From an uncultured Candidatus Saccharibacteria bacterium (GTDB taxonomy: Bacteria; Patescibacteriota; Saccharimonadia; Saccharimonadales; Saccharimonadaceae), in contig CAMUBZ010000011.1 of assembly GCA_947087275.1 (NCBI GenBank), forward strand, positions 1-34,718: 34,718 bases of DNA. The letters are read 5' to 3'. The position numbers and the translations under genes were made by a program. Position 1 is the first letter of the stretch. Each line of letters starts with the position of its first letter. Below the pieces are notes generated by a model. It was not told where the DNA came from and did no database searches. It saw only the letters and a list, made by a program, of their open reading frames with translations. This document shows, in pieces, positions 3,545-29,351 of the stretch.

Positions 3545-4303
3545 ATGACTATTGAAGGCTTATTAGAAAATAAAGTCGCCGTTGTTACTGGTGGCACCCG
3601 GGGGATCGGCCTCGCTATCGTACGCAAATTCTTAGAGCAAGGTGCAACCGTCGTCTTATTTGGCTCACGCCAAGAAACCGCTGACGCTGCCGTCACTAAA
3701 TTACATGAAGAAAACTCCGCGTGGCCGGTTTTTGGCCTCGCTCCAAATCTCAGCGATTATACTAGCGTCGAGCAGGCGTTTCAGCAGATTTTGCAAGACC
3801 ATGGCAAGATCGACATCCTTGCCAATAACGCCGGCATCTCCGCACGTGAGTCTTTATATGATTATAAGCCTGAAGATTTTGACAAAATCATGGACCTGAA
3901 CGTTAAGGCCTTGTTCAACTGTAGTAAAGCCGTAGCACCATCCATGCGCGACCAAGGTGGCGGCTGCATTATCAATACCAGTTCGATGGTCAGCATTTAT
4001 GGCCAAGCCGCCGGTTGTGGCTACCCAGCCTCCAAATTTGCTGTTAATGGCCTTACCAAATCCCTGGCTAGGGAATTAGGCAAAGACGGTATTCGCGTCA
4101 ACGCTGTTGCCCCCGGCGTTACTAAGACCGACATGCTCGCAAATCTCCCCACAGAAATGGCTGCCCGAGTTTCTGCCGGCATCCCTCTCGGTCGCCCTGG
4201 TGAGCCCGAAGAAATCGCCAACGTCTTTCTCTTCCTTGCCAGCAACCTCGCTAGCTACGTCACGGGGGCAGTCGTCTCCGTGGATGGCGCCACGCAAGTC
4301 TAG
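3545..4303 (+). CDS. fabG: SDR-family oxidoreductase, FabG-like 3-oxoacyl-ACP reductase
   Basis: This is a 252-residue classical short-chain dehydrogenase with the cofactor motif TGGTRGIG (15-22), NNAG (94-97), a catalytic Ser (about 146-147), Tyr160 and Lys164 in YPASK, and the PG-x-(V/T)-x-T-x-M segment after the active site. It would reduce a keto group with NAD(P)H. Length and motifs match FabG, but no other fatty-acid gene is nearby, so the substrate is open. The ATG at 3545 is chosen because GGAGG lies 6 nt upstream; the frame is open further upstream, but that part overlaps the C45 gene and has no start signals. Confidence 0.85.
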   Translation: MTIEGLLENKVAVVTGGTRGIGLAIVRKFLEQGATVVLFGSRQETADAAVTKLHEENSAWPVFGLAPNLSDYTSVEQAFQQILQDHGKIDILANNAGISARESLYDYKPEDFDKIMDLNVKALFNCSKAVAPSMRDQGGGCIINTSSMVSIYGQAAGCGYPASKFAVNGLTKSLARELGKDGIRVNAVAPGVTKTDMLANLPTEMAARVSAGIPLGRPGEPEEIANVFLFLASNLASYVTGAVVSVDGATQV

Positions 4304-4311
4304 GCTAAGTA

Positions 4312-4340
4312 TTGACAAATTTCAACTTTCGTGATACAAT
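4312..4340 (+). promoter_or_regulatory. Promoter of the ubiquitin-like operon
   Basis: TTGACA (4312-4317) and TACAAT (4335-4340) have 17-bp spacing, and the -10 is followed by GGAGG. The leader of about 90 nt contains a small hairpin (GAGGG...CCCTC) and AAGAAGG before the TTG start of the first gene. A 13-codon reading frame (ATG 4347) lies in the leader but its GGAGG is too close to the ATG to be convincing. Confidence 0.8.
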
Positions 4341-4436
4341 GGAGGCATGAGGGTAGTTTTTGTCGCCCTCAAGCGGAACTATAGCTAAAATGCTATGATT
4401 CCTTAAAAATTCAGTTGAAGAAAGAAGGTGTTTTAT

Positions 4437-5735
4437 TTGAAACGACGTTCCAAAACCGACTACTCTGATATTAGCTTTCGCTACTTGAGTGGCCCTCTTG
4501 CTTCGGTCACACTTGTGGTGGCTTTTTTCAGCGCAGTGGTCCTTTTGTTGGGCACCACTGTGGTAAGCGGAAACTATGATGCGAGCATCGAGCATAATCA
4601 AACCGCCCAAAAATTCAATCAGTTATCGCTGACAGAGCGTCAACTAATAACTGAGTGGTCTGAATTAGAAGTGGATGCAGGAACCTATTTAATGACCTTG
4701 AAGGACGACCCACTACGCGTTGGTGAGTTTGTCCCCCGATGCTTACTGGTCGCTATTGGGGTTCTTATCGTCGTACTCTCCGCAACACTGTTCCTCTATT
4801 ATTGGGACGAGAAGCGCTCAGACCATTTTTTGGCCGATTTGCCTTTAGGCACCGCATACGGTTGGTTCCTATTCTTTGGCATGTTTGTTGCCTGGCCAAT
4901 CCTAATAGTCAGTGCACTACGCATGTGGCGATATTTTCGCCCTCAGCACAAAGCTGAAAAGGCAATCGTGGAGCAACAGGCCGAGGCTGAACTGTCCGAT
5001 GAGCAAGTTTATCAGCTAGCACAATCACCCAAAATCCGCAAAATGCGCGTAGCACGTCAAGTCTACGTTAATTATCGCGCTCGCGGTATGACACAAACTC
5101 AGCAAAAACTGATCGAGGCCGCCGAAGGGCGAGTTGAAGAACTTAAGCACGACATTCGCGACTATGGCCAAAAAATCCAGCGCAAGCAACGTGAGCTCGG
5201 TGAGGCGAAGGCTGAGTTGCAAAACTTAACTACCGTCAAAATCTCTGCCCAAGCTACTCGCTCTCAAGCAAAAACCGAATGGAAATTGCTGAGCGAAATG
5301 CGTGGCGTGGCAAACATTACTGCTCAAAAGGGCCGAGGTAAACGACCAGACAAAATCTTTATTTTGGTCAAAGTACGTGTGCCGTATCGTAACCATGTTT
5401 ATGATTTTGGCGACTATCGTATTATGCTTTGCGGAACCACATTCGAATGCAAGCGCGTGCGTTCTGGAGTTAAAGTCGACCATACCAGCACATATCCAGA
5501 CTATAACGAGTCTAGAGGATTTTGCTTTGGTAGTCGGCGAGAAACAATTCTGGACTACTTAGGACAAGGCAAAATCATTGAGGCAGTTACACTAATGATT
5601 GATTGCTTGCATTCTGTTAATGACGGAGTAGAAAGTTACATTCCGGAGTGTTTTCGTAAAGTTGCAACCGTTGAACGTGCAAAACGGCGCCTGAGGCGCC
5701 AAGCCAAAGACAAAGGAGGGAAATCAAATGGCTAA
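4437..5735 (+). CDS. Membrane-anchored coiled-coil protein with E2/UBC-like C-terminal domain
   Basis: This 432-residue protein is the first gene of the Ubl operon. Three membrane helices (about 22-44, 101-122, 140-163) are followed by a charged coiled coil (about 172-290) and a C-terminal domain (about 300-405). The latter resembles E2 conjugating folds: beta strands (IFILVKVRVPY), an H-x-S-T-Y-P-D-Y segment, a Cys in RGFCFGSR (Cys363), then two helices ending MIDCLHSVND, comparable to the HP-N-x-G-x-(I/C)-C...L...NP path of E2s and of bacterial E2-like proteins in JAMM/E1/Ubl operons. Cys363 is the candidate active site. The E2 call is a pattern inference, not proven homology. Start TTG 4437 is chosen because AAGAAGG lies 8 nt upstream; an in-frame GTG at 4428 overlaps that site. 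It overlaps the JAMM gene by 8 nt. Confidence 0.6.
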   Translation: MKRRSKTDYSDISFRYLSGPLASVTLVVAFFSAVVLLLGTTVVSGNYDASIEHNQTAQKFNQLSLTERQLITEWSELEVDAGTYLMTLKDDPLRVGEFVPRCLLVAIGVLIVVLSATLFLYYWDEKRSDHFLADLPLGTAYGWFLFFGMFVAWPILIVSALRMWRYFRPQHKAEKAIVEQQAEAELSDEQVYQLAQSPKIRKMRVARQVYVNYRARGMTQTQQKLIEAAEGRVEELKHDIRDYGQKIQRKQRELGEAKAELQNLTTVKISAQATRSQAKTEWKLLSEMRGVANITAQKGRGKRPDKIFILVKVRVPYRNHVYDFGDYRIMLCGTTFECKRVRSGVKVDHTSTYPDYNESRGFCFGSRRETILDYLGQGKIIEAVTLMIDCLHSVNDGVESYIPECFRKVATVERAKRRLRRQAKDKGGKSNG

Positions 5736-6282
5736 AATTATTTTGCATATTCCAATTCAAATTTGGCAGCGCATTCGGTATTACATCGATGCCTGCGCAC
5801 CACGCGAGGTTACCGGCATCGGCACAATTGAAGTCGTTACTTCCACGGAACTCTGCGTCACCGAAATCTTTCTCCCCAATCAATGCTCGAACGCTGGCTA
5901 TTGCGAGTGTGACGACGAAGCACTGAATGGGATTATCTTCAATCTTGTTGAAGATAATCCAGCCGAGGCTGGCAAATTGCGTTTTCGTTGGCACTCTCAT
6001 GCCAACGGGCAGTGTTTTTGGTCTACCACAGATCAAAACGACATCAATAATTGGCAATCCGAGTGGGTAGTAAATTTAGTTTCCAATGTGAAAGGCGACA
6101 TCTTGGCGAGATTAGACATTTTCGAGCCATTTCGTGTCGCAAACATACCGCTGGAAACCATAATTGAATTTCCGGAGAGCGAAGAATTACGCGCGCAATG
6201 TTTTGCCGAAGCCAAACAAAAGGTGCGCGCCATACCGAATCCGTCAGTTTTGCCGGATGGGAAAGGAGGCATTTTAGCATGA
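5728..6282 (+). CDS. JAMM/MPN-domain metalloprotease (deubiquitinase-like)
   Basis: This 184-residue protein carries a complete JAMM zinc site: Glu27 (REVTG), then His89-Ser-His91, seven residues, Ser99, two residues, Asp102, in WHSHANGQCFWSTTD. In bacterial Ubl operons such enzymes trim the Ubl tail or cleave Ubl-target isopeptide bonds. The gene sits between the E2-like and E1-like genes, overlaps the former, and its TGA overlaps the next ATG (6279-6282). AAAGGAGG precedes the start. It is probably cytoplasmic; no signal peptide or membrane segment is visible. The motif is decisive for the family; the substrate role is inferred from context. Confidence 0.88.
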   Translation: MAKIILHIPIQIWQRIRYYIDACAPREVTGIGTIEVVTSTELCVTEIFLPNQCSNAGYCECDDEALNGIIFNLVEDNPAEAGKLRFRWHSHANGQCFWSTTDQNDINNWQSEWVVNLVSNVKGDILARLDIFEPFRVANIPLETIIEFPESEELRAQCFAEAKQKVRAIPNPSVLPDGKGGILA

Positions 6283-6938
6283 GCCAAACTTTTGACTATT
6301 CTGACCAGCATAAAATCTTTGACACCGAAACTTGGGGTTGGCCGATACATTTAATTGGCGCTGGTGGCATCAATAATTTAGTTGGGCCAACTCTGGCCAA
6401 AATGGGCATCAACGAAATCCACATCTGGGATGATGACATTCTGGAAGTGCGTAATTATCCTACTGAAGTAGCTTACAGCTACAAAATGGTTGGACGTCCT
6501 AAAGTTGCCGCCATGGCCGACACAATCTACTACTTGCGCCCTGATGTCAATGTTTATCAGCATCAAGAACGTATTACCGCCGAAACACAGCTTAACGGAA
6601 TTGTGATTTCGGGCGTTGATTCCATGGCAAGTCGCCAGACGATCTGGCAATGCATCCAAAACAACTTTTTGGAAATCCCGTTTTTCATTGACGGCCGCAG
6701 TGCTGGCGAAGAGACTGCAATTTTTGCTTTCTCGCCCAGCGATATGGACTCCGCCGAAATCTATAGCGAAGACTGGCTGTTCGACGATGGCGAAGTACTA
6801 GAACTGGAATGCGGCGCACGCAACATTGGCTATATTGCCGATTATATGGCAGCTGAAATCTGCCGTTTAATCACCAGATTTCATCGGAATCTTCCGGTGG
6901 AATTCTATAGACACAGAAATTTTGCCAACGAAAATTAA
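6279..6938 (+). CDS. ThiF/E1-like adenylating enzyme
   Basis: This 219-residue protein has the E1/ThiF/MoeB Rossmann core: GAGGINN (27-33) for ATP, the acidic run DDD (51-53) leading to EVRN (56-59), Lys75 in GRPK, and Asp114...Arg119 (VDSMASR). A later segment, IDGRSAGEE then LECGARNIGYIA, resembles E1 variants of bacterial Ubl/JAMM operons, and Cys178 is the candidate thioester cysteine. It would adenylate the Ubl C-terminus and pass it to the E2-like protein. The ATG at 6279 overlaps the JAMM stop and has AAAGGAGG 9-10 nt upstream. No moeA, moaE, thiG or other cofactor genes accompany it, arguing against a thiamine or molybdopterin role. Confidence 0.87.
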   Translation: MSQTFDYSDQHKIFDTETWGWPIHLIGAGGINNLVGPTLAKMGINEIHIWDDDILEVRNYPTEVAYSYKMVGRPKVAAMADTIYYLRPDVNVYQHQERITAETQLNGIVISGVDSMASRQTIWQCIQNNFLEIPFFIDGRSAGEETAIFAFSPSDMDSAEIYSEDWLFDDGEVLELECGARNIGYIADYMAAEICRLITRFHRNLPVEFYRHRNFANEN

Positions 6939-6951
6939 AGGAGGAAAAATC

Positions 6952-7191
6952 ATGGCAGAAAACAAAGCACAGGGAACTGTAAACGTAGCAAATGGTGCCG
7001 GCAATGTACCGACGGCAATCGACTGGTACCCCGGCGATACCGTTGCCAGTATTCTGGAACGCGCAAATATCACCATTGAACATGGACAGGCCGCCACACT
7101 TGGCAAAAGACGGGTGAAACGCCCCGCAAAGACGCCTGTAGAATCAGGTGCAACCATCGTAATTGCCGGCAAGATCAGCAACGGACGCTAA
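6952..7191 (+). CDS. Beta-grasp ubiquitin-like protein (candidate Ubl modifier)
   Basis: This is a 79-residue protein and the last gene of the operon. The pattern WYPGDTVASILERANI (25-40), then TPVESGATIVIAGKI (61-75), follows the ThiS/MoaD/ubiquitin beta-grasp layout with a C-terminal strand ending in a flexible tail. The tail is SNGR rather than GG, so a JAMM cut that removes Arg79 would expose Gly78 for adenylation. That is inference. AAAGGAGG lies 6-7 nt before ATG 6952. The first 20 residues are Gly/Ala/Asn-rich and probably flexible. Position next to E1, JAMM and E2-like genes supports the modifier role more than the sequence alone. Confidence 0.7.
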   Translation: MAENKAQGTVNVANGAGNVPTAIDWYPGDTVASILERANITIEHGQAATLGKRRVKRPAKTPVESGATIVIAGKISNGR

Positions 7192-7222
7192 ACCAATTTC
7201 TTACAACTGAATATCGCATTAA

Positions 7223-7248
7223 GGGCAGACTACGGTCTGTCCTTTTTT
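7223..7248 (+). terminator. Rho-independent terminator of the Ubl operon
   Basis: An 8-bp stem, GGGCAGAC / GTCTGTCC with loop TACG, is followed by TTTTTT. Confidence 0.9.
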
Positions 7249-7262
7249 ACACAAACTAGTCT

Positions 7263-7290
7263 TGTAGGGAAACTGCAAGCGTGATATAAT
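7263..7290 (+). promoter_or_regulatory. Promoter of tRNA-Ala
   Basis: TTGTAG (7263-7268) and TATAAT (7285-7290) have 16-bp spacing and lie 10 bp upstream of the mature tRNA. Confidence 0.6.
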
Positions 7291-7299
7291 AATAGCAAC

Positions 7300-7376
7300 G
7301 GGGTATTAGCTCAGTTGGCTAGAGCGCTTCAATGGCATTGAAGAGGTCATGAGTTCGAGTCTCATATACTCCACCA
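7300..7376 (+). tRNA. tRNA-Ala (GGC)
   Basis: Acceptor arms GGGGTAT / ATACTCC pair and include the G3:U70 wobble that is the identity element of tRNA-Ala. The anticodon loop reads A-T-GGC-A-T on a CTTCA/TGAAG stem. The T-arm has GTTCGAGTC, and CCA is encoded at 7374-7376. Confidence 0.95.
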
Positions 7377-9073: not shown

Positions 9074-10093
9074 ATGACAACTTCACCAACCATTCTCACC
9101 GGCATGCGCGTCAACAGCCAAATGACCCTTGGCAATTTTTTGGGTGCTTTACTCCCCATGGTGCGCCTCGCCAACACTCATAGTCAAAATTCGCATATTA
9201 ACATCTTTGTACCAGATCTTCATTCCATGATCGACACTGTCGACGGGGAACTACAACAAAACCTCATTCAATCCCTCAAATATTATCTTGCCGCCGGCCT
9301 CGAACTCAACCAAAATGTCCATCTCTACCGTCAATCACGCGTGCCCGCCCATTCTGAACTCTGCTGGATTCTCAACTGCGTCGCCACTATGGGCGAACTT
9401 GGTCGCATGACTCAATACAAAGACAAAAGTGAAGGTAAAGATAGCGTCGGTGTAGGTATTTTCGACTATCCTGTGCTCATGGCCGCCGACATCTTACTCT
9501 ACGACGCCACCTACATCCCCGTGGGCGAAGATCAATTCCAACATATCGAGCTCACCCGGCGCCTTGCCGAGCGTTTCAACCATCGCTTTGGCGAAATTTT
9601 CGTCATCCCCGCCAAACCCGAGGAGCAGGTCAAATTCATGAATGTCGAGAACGGCATCCGCATCCGCGATTTACAAAACCCCGAGAAAAAGATGAGCAAA
9701 TCTAATCATGCCGAGAACAGCAAAATTATGCTTTCTGATGCTCCTGTCGCTGCTGCCAAAAAGATTATGTCTGCCACCACTGACTCAGTTGGCAAAATTC
9801 AATACGATATGTTTAACCAACCCGGTATTAGTAATCTCCTGCAAATCGAAGCCCTAGTGAATGATATTCCACTCCAGGACGTCATTTCTACTTGGGCCGG
9901 CGAAACCCGCTATGGTGACCTCAAGCAAAAGGTCGCCGCCAGTGTCCAAACTTTCCTTGAGACTTTCCAAAGCCGCCTTGCCACCATTAGCGATGAACAA
10001 ATCCTAAACCTCCTGGCCGAAGGCGAAATTTATGCCAATCAAGTCGCCAACACCAAACTGCACGCCGTACAAACCGCATTTCATTTGAGGTAA
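9074..10093 (+). CDS. trpS: Tryptophanyl-tRNA synthetase
   Basis: This 339-residue class I synthetase charges tRNA-Trp. MTLGNFLGA (17-25) is the HIGH-equivalent in the TLGN form also seen in Bacillus TrpRS. GELGRMTQYKDKS (108-119) and VGEDQFQHIELTR (150-162) are typical Trp/ATP-site segments, and KMSKS is at 206-210. Length is normal. AAAGGA lies 7 nt upstream of ATG 9074. The transcript probably starts at 9006 and carries the 10-codon ORF. The matching tRNA-Trp lies at 33533-33607. Confidence 0.97.
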   Translation: MTTSPTILTGMRVNSQMTLGNFLGALLPMVRLANTHSQNSHINIFVPDLHSMIDTVDGELQQNLIQSLKYYLAAGLELNQNVHLYRQSRVPAHSELCWILNCVATMGELGRMTQYKDKSEGKDSVGVGIFDYPVLMAADILLYDATYIPVGEDQFQHIELTRRLAERFNHRFGEIFVIPAKPEEQVKFMNVENGIRIRDLQNPEKKMSKSNHAENSKIMLSDAPVAAAKKIMSATTDSVGKIQYDMFNQPGISNLLQIEALVNDIPLQDVISTWAGETRYGDLKQKVAASVQTFLETFQSRLATISDEQILNLLAEGEIYANQVANTKLHAVQTAFHLR

Positions 10094-10097
10094 TCTC

Positions 10098-10982
10098 ATG
10101 ATTGTCACTGGCAAAAAATTCAGCAAACCCGAACTCTCTCGAGTCATCAACGGCGATACACAACTTGTCGCCGAGGAATCTGCTCCGGAAAAATTCCGCC
10201 TTGACCATCTACTCGTTGAGCAACATCCTGAATACAATCGTTCCAGTCTGCAAACTTTTATCAAATCTGGATTCGTCACCGTCGACGGAATAGCCGTCAC
10301 CAAGCCGAATAGCAAATTTGGGGCAAATGCCAAAATCGAGCTCAATGTCCCGTCTACAGCCAAACTTCCTCCTCGCCCACCAGTGATTTATGAAGATGAA
10401 CACGTTCTAGTGCTAAACAAACCGGCCGGATTACTTAGTATGGCTAAAGGCGAATATTGTCCTGAGCCCACACTAGAAGATTATGGCCTACTTGTACACC
10501 GTCTTGACCGTGATACTAGCGGCGTCGTAATTCTTGCCAAAGACCCAGCCACGCAAAAAATGCTCCGCAAGCAATTTCAAGATCGCAAAACCCACAAAAC
10601 TTACTACGCTGTCATTGAAGGTCATCCCAAACTCTCCGAAGCCATGATCGACCTCCCGATTGCGCGCAACCTCAAGCGCCCTACCACTTTCCAAGTTGAC
10701 CAAAATGGCAAAGCCTCGCAAACTTACTACAAAGTAATACAGCAAAACGATAAATACTCCCTGGTAGAACTCAAGCCAACCACTGGTCGCACTCATCAAC
10801 TCCGTGTGCATCTTAAATATCTTGGGACGCCCATTGTAGGCGATGTCGTTTATGGTACACCCGATCAACGGCTATTTTTGCATGCCAAAGATCTAGAAAT
10901 CACTATTCCTGGCACAGATGGCGGGGAACGTAAAATCTTTACCGCCGACTTACCGCCTGAATTTGCAGAAAAGGTAAAATAG
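10098..10982 (+). CDS. RluA-family RNA pseudouridine synthase
   Basis: This 294-residue protein has an N-terminal S4-like domain (about 32-85) and a pseudouridine synthase domain with LVHRLDRDTSGVV (132-144; catalytic Asp137), then KTYYAVIEG and KPTTGRTHQLRVHL. It isomerises uridine in rRNA or tRNA; RluD-type rRNA sites are likely but not provable here. It follows trpS by 4 bp, so the two are cotranscribed. The first 30 residues are an extension before the S4 domain. Confidence 0.92.
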   Translation: MIVTGKKFSKPELSRVINGDTQLVAEESAPEKFRLDHLLVEQHPEYNRSSLQTFIKSGFVTVDGIAVTKPNSKFGANAKIELNVPSTAKLPPRPPVIYEDEHVLVLNKPAGLLSMAKGEYCPEPTLEDYGLLVHRLDRDTSGVVILAKDPATQKMLRKQFQDRKTHKTYYAVIEGHPKLSEAMIDLPIARNLKRPTTFQVDQNGKASQTYYKVIQQNDKYSLVELKPTTGRTHQLRVHLKYLGTPIVGDVVYGTPDQRLFLHAKDLEITIPGTDGGERKIFTADLPPEFAEKVK

Positions 10983-20681: not shown

Positions 20682-20696
20682 AACTAACTCATCCCA

Positions 20697-20907
20697 CTCC
20701 TACATACCTAATACAGTACTAAGGCAGCGGAGGGAGAAACCGTAGTAACGACTACTACCATACGACGGAGAAACGTTAGTGTTGAATAGCAAATCATATG
20801 CGCTTGTATTATTGACATAAGTACGTGATGACCACCAGAACCCGTTTTGTCCGACGTTCCTTAATACACCAGCCGTATTAGGCGGGTGAAAATTTCCGCT
20901 GCGCACG
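20697..20907 (-). other. FISUMP-like tip cassette 1 (silent)
   Basis: From GTGCGCAGCGG it reads VRSGNFHPPNTAGVLRNVG, FWWSSRTY, AYDLLFNT, PSYGSSRYYGFS, then LRCLSTVLGM and stop. This is the C-terminal third of a FISUMP-type domain (RSG...WSS...AY.L.FN...P....R..GFSLRC). It lacks the N-terminal part of the domain, a signal peptide, a Shine-Dalgarno and a promoter. In-frame codons upstream give LLF before VRSG, as if cut from a longer gene. Confidence 0.75.
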
Positions 20908-21047
20908 AAAAGAAGCGATCTTTACCTTATCACTTTTTATTTTTCGATAAGGCAAGATGATTCAAATAACGGGGGTAAAGCAAAAATTTTACCTTATCAA
21001 ATTTTAAAAAACGATAAGGTCGCAAAATATTTAAGCAAGTAACATTC

Positions 21048-21278
21048 ATGCGCAGCGGTATCCTTGACTTAACTGTTATGCTGACCTACCGCACTGGTGG
21101 CGAATGTGGTCAAGCGTGGTCATCGCGTGGGGCTTATCCTCATATAACCGGAACGGCTACGCTCAGCGACTACATTTTATATTTCAACAGTATCCATGTG
21201 ATTCCATCGCATGGTCCGTATGAACGGTCAGCTGGCTACCCCCTCCGCTGCCTTAGTACTGTATTAGGTATGTAGGAG
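21048..21278 (+). other. FISUMP-like tip cassette 2 (silent)
   Basis: It starts ATGCGCAGCGG (ATG instead of GTG) and reads MRSGILDLTVMLTYRTGG, AWSSRGAY, SDYILYFNS, PSHGPYERSAGYP, LRCLSTVLGM and stop. The core differs almost completely from cassette 1 while both ends are conserved. No Shine-Dalgarno or -10 is apparent. Confidence 0.75.
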
Positions 21279-21300
21279 TGTATGGCTTATGGGAAAATAT

Positions 21301-28763: not shown

Positions 28764-28989
28764 CTCCTACATACCTAATACAGTACTAAGGCAGCGGAGG
28801 GAGTAACCGTGCCAACGGCTACCTGGGCCAGTTGAGGGCGTCGTTATAGTATTAGACGTGTTAAGATAATAGGCCGTTGGCATACTGGCGCCATCATAAC
28901 GCTCGGTGGAGCCAGTACTTGACCATACAAAGGCTTCCTCTACGTATCTCAATATTCCAGACGACAAGAATATATCCCCGCTGCGCACG
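28764..28989 (-). other. FISUMP-like tip cassette 3 (silent)
   Basis: From GTGCGCAGCGG it reads VRSGDIFLSSGILRYVEEA, FVWSSTGS, TAYYLNTSNTI, PSTGPGSRWHGYS, LRCLSTVLGM and stop. The frame continues upstream through the palindromic spacer (FFVRSG), but this part has no plausible start or homology. No promoter or Shine-Dalgarno is seen. Confidence 0.75.
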
Positions 28990-29116
28990 AAGAAGGGCTT
29001 TTTCTGATATTGTGCGACCTTATCGTTTTTTAAAAAACGATAAGGTCTATTTTGGGCTCTACCCCTGTTATTTGCATGACAAGACCTTAACAAAAATCAA
29101 AAAGTGTTAAGGTTTT

Positions 29117-29351
29117 CGTGCGCAGCGGGTGGCTTTATCCGTCAATCATGACTGGCGTATTTAGACATGCTGGTGCAGGAAGCGTGTGGTGGTCAGCACG
29201 AGGTACTGACACTCGTGCTGACGGAACGGCTGGTCCAAGTGCTTATGATTTGTATATTTATCTCAATACTATTAACCCATCACACTACAATAGCGATCGT
29301 TATGCTGCTTTCCCCCTCCGCTGCCTTAGTACTGTATTAGGTATGTAGGAG
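29117..29351 (+). other. FISUMP-like tip cassette 4 (silent)
   Basis: It reads VRSGWLYPSIMTGVFRHAG, VWWSARGT, SAYDLYIYLNT, NPSHYNSDRYAAFP, LRCLSTVLGM and stop. The hairpin CCTTAAC / GTTAAGG followed by TTTT ends directly at its 5' boundary and would terminate any incoming transcript. The -10 of the S51 peptidase gene follows 12 bp after its end. Confidence 0.75.

Follow-up and report, generated by a model that had tools for sequence, protein, structure and literature searches.

Does a four-gene unit in the genome of an uncultured Saccharibacterium encode a complete ubiquitin-like (Ubl) conjugation system, and what might such a system do there? Bacteria have few relatives of the ubiquitin system, and most of these are defence operons with soluble components. 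A complete set in a highly reduced, very small, parasite-like lineage, with its E2 in the membrane, would widen the known range of such systems. We analysed the locus within its window, i.e., the whole 34,718-nucleotide stretch of DNA to which the coordinates below refer unless another locus is named. Our best reading is that it is a real, conserved, membrane-linked variant of the bacterial Ubl-conjugation operons, previously unnamed as far as the searched literature shows. We estimate a probability of roughly 0.7 that it acts as an accessory, self-contained Ubl conjugation and deconjugation system at the cytoplasmic membrane, along the cycle proposed below.

The operon and its four proteins

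Positions 4312-7248 form a single promoter-to-terminator unit, in which the open reading frames of the window define four tightly packed or overlapping genes on the plus strand:

4312-4340, + strand: sigma-70-like promoter with extended -10 (TG), TTGACA-17-TACAAT, 11/12 consensus matches
4437-5735, + strand: gene A, 432-aa membrane protein whose C-terminal domain is E2 (UBC)-like (AlphaFold, profiles, conserved Cys363)
5728-6282, + strand: gene B, 184-aa JAMM/JAB isopeptidase-like protein (invariant residues, profile matches)
6279-6938, + strand: gene C, 219-aa minimal E1/ThiF adenylating enzyme (PF00899 above cut-off, Cys178)
6952-7191, + strand: gene D, 79-aa beta-grasp Ubl (model, profile matches, invariant Gly78)
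7221-7248, + strand: intrinsic (Rho-independent) terminator, hairpin 7221-7244 (-16.3 kcal/mol, z about -6.4) followed by a U-run
7300-7376, + strand: tRNA-Ala(GGC), which bounds the operon's variable slot on the right

Promoter, four plus-strand genes and terminator thus agree with the sequence-only reading, which had proposed one operon of four genes. It had also taken the source to be a probable Saccharibacterium, in line with the presence of the operon in the same-genus genomes G197, G233 and G163. The likely start of gene A is the TTG at 4437, nine bases past an in-frame GTG at 4428. An RNA element search covering the leader returned only tRNA. The slot at 3554-7376, between a short-chain dehydrogenase gene and the tRNA-Ala, holds unrelated genes in another genome of the same genus (G179). 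Chance can be excluded because the gene set and its order recur across many independent genomes.

When the single proteins were searched against Pfam, NCBIfam, PADLOC and PHROGs, only the E1 was firmly recognised (PF00899, 6e-18, above the cut-off). Its Cys178 is invariant in 13 relatives, together with GxGG, D51/D53, E56, N59, K75 and D114...R119, and its profile matched the NEDD8 E1 first (6.9e-18), followed by UBA1, MccB and ThiF. The ThiF/E1-like enzyme with C178 that had been read from the sequence is therefore well founded. The Arg normally found in NLxRQ is lacking, with Thr62 at the aligned position, and hence gene C is better described as belonging to the ThiF/E1 superfamily than as an E1 that is canonical at each residue.

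The JAMM protein of gene B has its domain from residue ~11. As a single sequence it matched the Pfam family Prok-JAB at 0.0043, under the cut-off. Its profile matched Rpn11 most closely (5.9e-8), as well as AMSH-LP, JAMM1 and other deubiquitinases. The motif E...HxH-x(7-10)-S-x2-D is present and aligns to HSH...S..D of Rpn11. The catalytic and zinc residues named beforehand (E27, H89, H91, S99 and D102) are indeed invariant in 13 relatives, as is S90.

The predicted beta-grasp of the last protein is likewise seen in its AlphaFold model (pLDDT 83), with structural matches to ThiS, MoaD and ubiquitin. The Ubl profile matched PF1061 (9.5e-12) and SAMP2 (2.2e-11), and also MoaD and ThiS structures. 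The protein ends in ...KISNG-R, and its Gly78 is invariant in 31 proteins. Saccharibacterial Ubls end in NG plus 0-2 further residues and are often tailless; the outgroup usually ends in GG. Since the tail is often absent, the JAMM would be needed mainly for removal of the Ubl, not for its maturation.

Gene A has three hydrophobic segments (residues 21-39, 102-120 and 143-161), a helical/coiled-coil linker (residues about 165-265) and an E2 (UBC)-like domain (residues about 271-428). The latter contains Cys363, within ...YPDYNESRGFCFG..., which is invariant in an alignment of 24 relatives. These segments and the invariant cysteine bear out the claim of a membrane-linked, E2-like first protein. 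A UBC-like fold, on which the sequence-only reading had staked its case, was obtained with AlphaFold from 24 homologues: residues 271-428 are arranged as alpha-4beta-[Cys363 loop]-alpha-alpha, with pLDDT mostly >90. In a comparison with solved structures, UEV, E2 and RWD chains together with the CBASS E2 dominate the aligned list; the best Z is 8.2, and we read this list cautiously. A Z below about 8 can reflect a common arrangement. A Foldseek search with the full-length gene A model yielded nothing significant among E2 proteins (best UEV, E 0.75; none below E 0.7).

The Saccharibacterial E2-like domain is homologous to a soluble HPH...C family of E2 proteins (hhalign E 3.6e-18). The whole E2-like family shares the motif [HY]P..-x(n)-C[FLW]G, which is clearer in the mostly soluble sister family (HPH[IV]...CLG) of Methylomirabilota, other bacteria and viral contigs. 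In the Saccharibacterial domain, YP[DN]Y or similar stands where HPN is expected; Tyr or another residue takes the place of the His, while the Cys is invariant. The nine best PDB matches of the joint profile are UBE2L3-type E2s (human), aligned up to the catalytic Cys but marginal (E 0.03); at this level they are no more than suggestive of an E2 identity for the domain. Each Pfam family matched at most one of 36 members, through single weak matches to families other than E2, and the E2 family described here is thus not covered by Pfam. Matches of gene A to MakE, TraP, BnzB and JetC were discarded as weak, low-complexity coiled-coil matches.

Charges favour a location inside the cell for both the N-terminus of gene A and the region after segment three. 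If both ends are inside, the third segment, which is broken by a conserved WP, must be re-entrant. Otherwise, with three segments and a positively charged N-terminus, the E2 domain would come to lie outside. An acidic loop of 60 residues is probably extracytoplasmic.

We infer the reactions, the substrates and the role of the system throughout. In the proposed cycle, the JAMM (B) would trim the one-residue tail beyond Gly78, where a tail exists. The E1 (C) would then adenylate Gly78 and form a thioester on Cys178, from which the Ubl would pass to Cys363 of the membrane-held E2 (A). With no need for a separate E3, this E2 may attach the Ubl to lysines of membrane or envelope proteins close by, or possibly to lipid head groups, and the JAMM would take it off again. 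Such a four-protein cascade could be rebuilt in the laboratory. Counting against this model are the Arg-less E1 motif, the replaced His of HPN, the Foldseek result for gene A, the marginal E2 profile matches (E 0.03), the topology of gene A unless its third segment is re-entrant, and the existence of soluble relatives. Conserved residues, predicted folds and the recurring gene order support the earlier claim of a complete E1/E2/Ubl/JAMM set.

Distribution and known systems

The JAMM is present in 16 of 393 genomes of the class, and the E2-like gene in 6 of 147 genomes of the genus and 5 of 380 of the phylum. Our profile scan yielded 33 loci in named genomes and 21 in viral contigs. These loci belong to Saccharibacteria, other CPR, Methylomirabilota, Rubrobacter, Ignavibacteriota, Calditrichota, Verrucomicrobia and viral contigs. 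To the sequence-only reading, this gene set and order, with a membrane-bound E2-like protein, were not known from a CPR genome. The gene set is not unique to this genome: other Saccharibacteria, other phyla and viral contigs carry versions of it. The same four-gene order, which it had proposed to seek in CPR genomes, recurs: most of the about 20 Saccharibacteria loci have E2-JAMM-E1-Ubl (A-B-C-D), with one genome showing B-C-D-A.

In the E1 tree (midpoint root), the Saccharibacteria cluster together with good support (23 members, SH-aLRT 99), and their E2 protein mostly has membrane segments. The other part of the tree contains the viral and other bacterial versions, with mostly soluble E2 proteins; two Parcubacteria-type loci in this part also have membrane segments. 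In Saccharibacteria, the operon is a patchily distributed accessory module; its sisters in other phyla and in viral contigs are mostly soluble. The soluble relatives show that the membrane part is not needed everywhere.

Locus L020 (5459-14608) carries two copies of the operon side by side, one of which has a soluble E2 together with an E1 doubled in tandem. In locus L026 of a same-genus genome, an orphan JAMM (9494-10132) has no A, C or D nearby. Homologues of the operon's flanking genes in L021 are found close by, which makes this an apparent case of decay. Because L026 keeps only the JAMM, it seems that the system can be lost.

Among described systems, CBASS Cap2/Cap3 resembles the operon in its E1, E2 and JAMM activities, which are predicted in our case. 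Cap2 is a fused E2 and E1 that modifies a CD-NTase (see also PMC10097602). In contrast, the operon studied here has separate E1 and E2 genes and lacks a CD-NTase, which does not fit type II CBASS. Bil (BilABCD) likewise comprises four genes for Ubl, E2, JAMM and E1. However, BilA has two Ubl domains, BilD combines an inactive and an active adenylation domain with a Cys domain, and BilB has a CEHH motif (PMC11354881), whereas our operon encodes a single 79-aa Ubl, a single-domain 219-aa E1 and a membrane-tied FCFG E2. Among the Bil profiles only BilD matched (E 0.007), which does not place the operon in Bil.

The PRTRC plasmid cassette shares the JAMM, ThiF and Ubl components, and our E1 profile finds PRTRC ThiF at about 1e-11. 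Yet, ParB and the PRTRC proteins B, E and F have no counterparts among the operon neighbours, and the NCBIfam models for PRTRC A and ThiF scored far below their cut-offs (12.9 vs 101.8 and 16.8 vs 144.75 bits, respectively). Conversely, our E2 models found no PRTRC protein in the PRTRC loci examined. The expectation that the operon is distinct from PRTRC, Bil and CBASS was thus upheld, with no model matching at cut-off.

The type 6d operons of JAB, E1, E2 and Ubl (Iyer, Burroughs and Aravind 2006; PMC1779556) are similar in having a small stand-alone Ubl with a conserved C-terminal Gly, adjacent JAB and E1 genes, and a separate Cys-bearing E2-like protein. Features of type 6d that are missing here are the JAB-N domain, the alpha-helical partner gene (there is no fifth gene) and the invariant His downstream of the E2 Cys, which the alignment of the gene A family lacks. 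Our operon differs further in its E2 with membrane segments and coiled coil, and in the order E2-JAMM-E1-Ubl. The membrane-held E2 arrangement found no match in the protein-family databases or literature searched. Nor did we find these genes described from Saccharibacteria or other CPR; this is a weak absence, given limited coverage of subscription papers and preprints.

Possible roles

A sulfur-carrier or cofactor pathway, in which a ThiS/MoaD-like Ubl works with ThiF, might be suggested by the E1 matches to ThiF and by the Ubl profile matches to SAMP2, MoaD and ThiS structures. Such a role is unlikely for this operon, because gene C is the only ThiF-family protein in the genome (91% complete) and no ThiS/MoaD, ThiG or MoaE was found there, while the same searches were positive in 11 to 14 control genomes. 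A conserved E2-like gene and a JAMM adjoin, and the neighbour families shown include no sulfur genes. We therefore consider this pathway strongly disfavoured and highly improbable. The original reading had noted no accompanying genes for thiamine, molybdopterin or cysteine biosynthesis, and the lack of a sulfur-carrier context is supported; we looked for sulfur-carrier neighbours and found none.

For the Ubl conjugation system that we favour, we regard protection against phages or other genetic conflict as the most likely role, a plausible conjecture suggested by the kind of system. Specifically, the Ubl might tag phage or cell proteins and thereby block infection, like Bil and CBASS Cap2. This would be in line with component classes that are the same as in Bil and type II CBASS, with the patchy distribution and the variable slot, and with weak E1-E2 and BilD profile matches of the E1. 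However, the 90 proteins that neighbour the operon in about 18 Saccharibacteria loci have mostly housekeeping functions and include no recurring defence family. Moreover, genes A, B and D gave no strong match to any PADLOC defence model, and phages themselves carry related genes. Anti-phage immunity can therefore be held only tentatively, with the odds somewhat against it. The sequence-only reading had suggested phage defence or host-contact regulation; neither is borne out by the mostly housekeeping neighbourhood.

The position of the E2 in the membrane invites other explanations. The system might regulate membrane or surface proteins of the epibiont, e.g., host attachment proteins, with the acidic loop as a possible sensor of a signal. 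We regard this as unlikely, since most close relatives lack the operon although they presumably share the same lifestyle. In a broader form, which we consider doubtful but slightly less so, the membrane-spanning E2, possibly through an extracytoplasmic sensing loop, would respond to a signal from the envelope by tagging membrane proteins or lipids with the Ubl; this would represent a new class of bacterial Ubl pathway that shares common descent with the soluble versions in viral contigs. Less probable than either is conjugation of the Ubl to a phospholipid, as for Atg8, coating the inner membrane or vesicles. The fusion of the E2 domain to membrane segments and a coiled coil would suit such a reaction, as would the fact that the operon has no gene set apart for a substrate or an E3. 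Yet, the sister E2s are soluble, sequence evidence for lipid specificity is lacking, and among the matches listed the E2 resembles UBE2/UEV rather than Atg3.

Phage-borne relatives and other features of the window

A tblastn search with the window E1 found proteins of crAss-like Bacteroides phages (27-35% identity) that are annotated as thiamine biosynthesis proteins. In the crAss-like Kolpuevirus OQ198718, the E1 shares 35% identity over 182 residues, and a JAMM gene lies immediately upstream. In contrast to our operon, no membrane E2 was seen there; the gene preceding the JAMM has an HSH...PCLG motif and was missed by the E2 models. Two crAss-like phages show this arrangement, with the JAMM directly upstream of the E1 and a gene with an HSH...PCxG motif before the JAMM. 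The thiamine annotation of these genes is probably wrong as to function. Together with the soluble sisters in viral contigs, the crAss-like E1 and JAMM raise the question whether phages use Ubl tagging themselves.

In the crAss-like loci L102 (1394-5642) and L103 (1517-5648), a protein with a possible ubiquitin-like N-terminus and the HSH...PCxG protein lie beside the E1 and JAMM. Perhaps these genes form a phage Ubl system that has been annotated as thiamine biosynthesis.

Elsewhere in the window, at 20695-21280 and 28764-29351, there are two pairs of short open reading frames in inverted orientation, with ends of 43-47 nt that are 94-95% complementary. The three that were checked end in ...RCLSTVLGM. 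They resemble silent C-terminal cassettes of surface proteins, which possibly serve variation.
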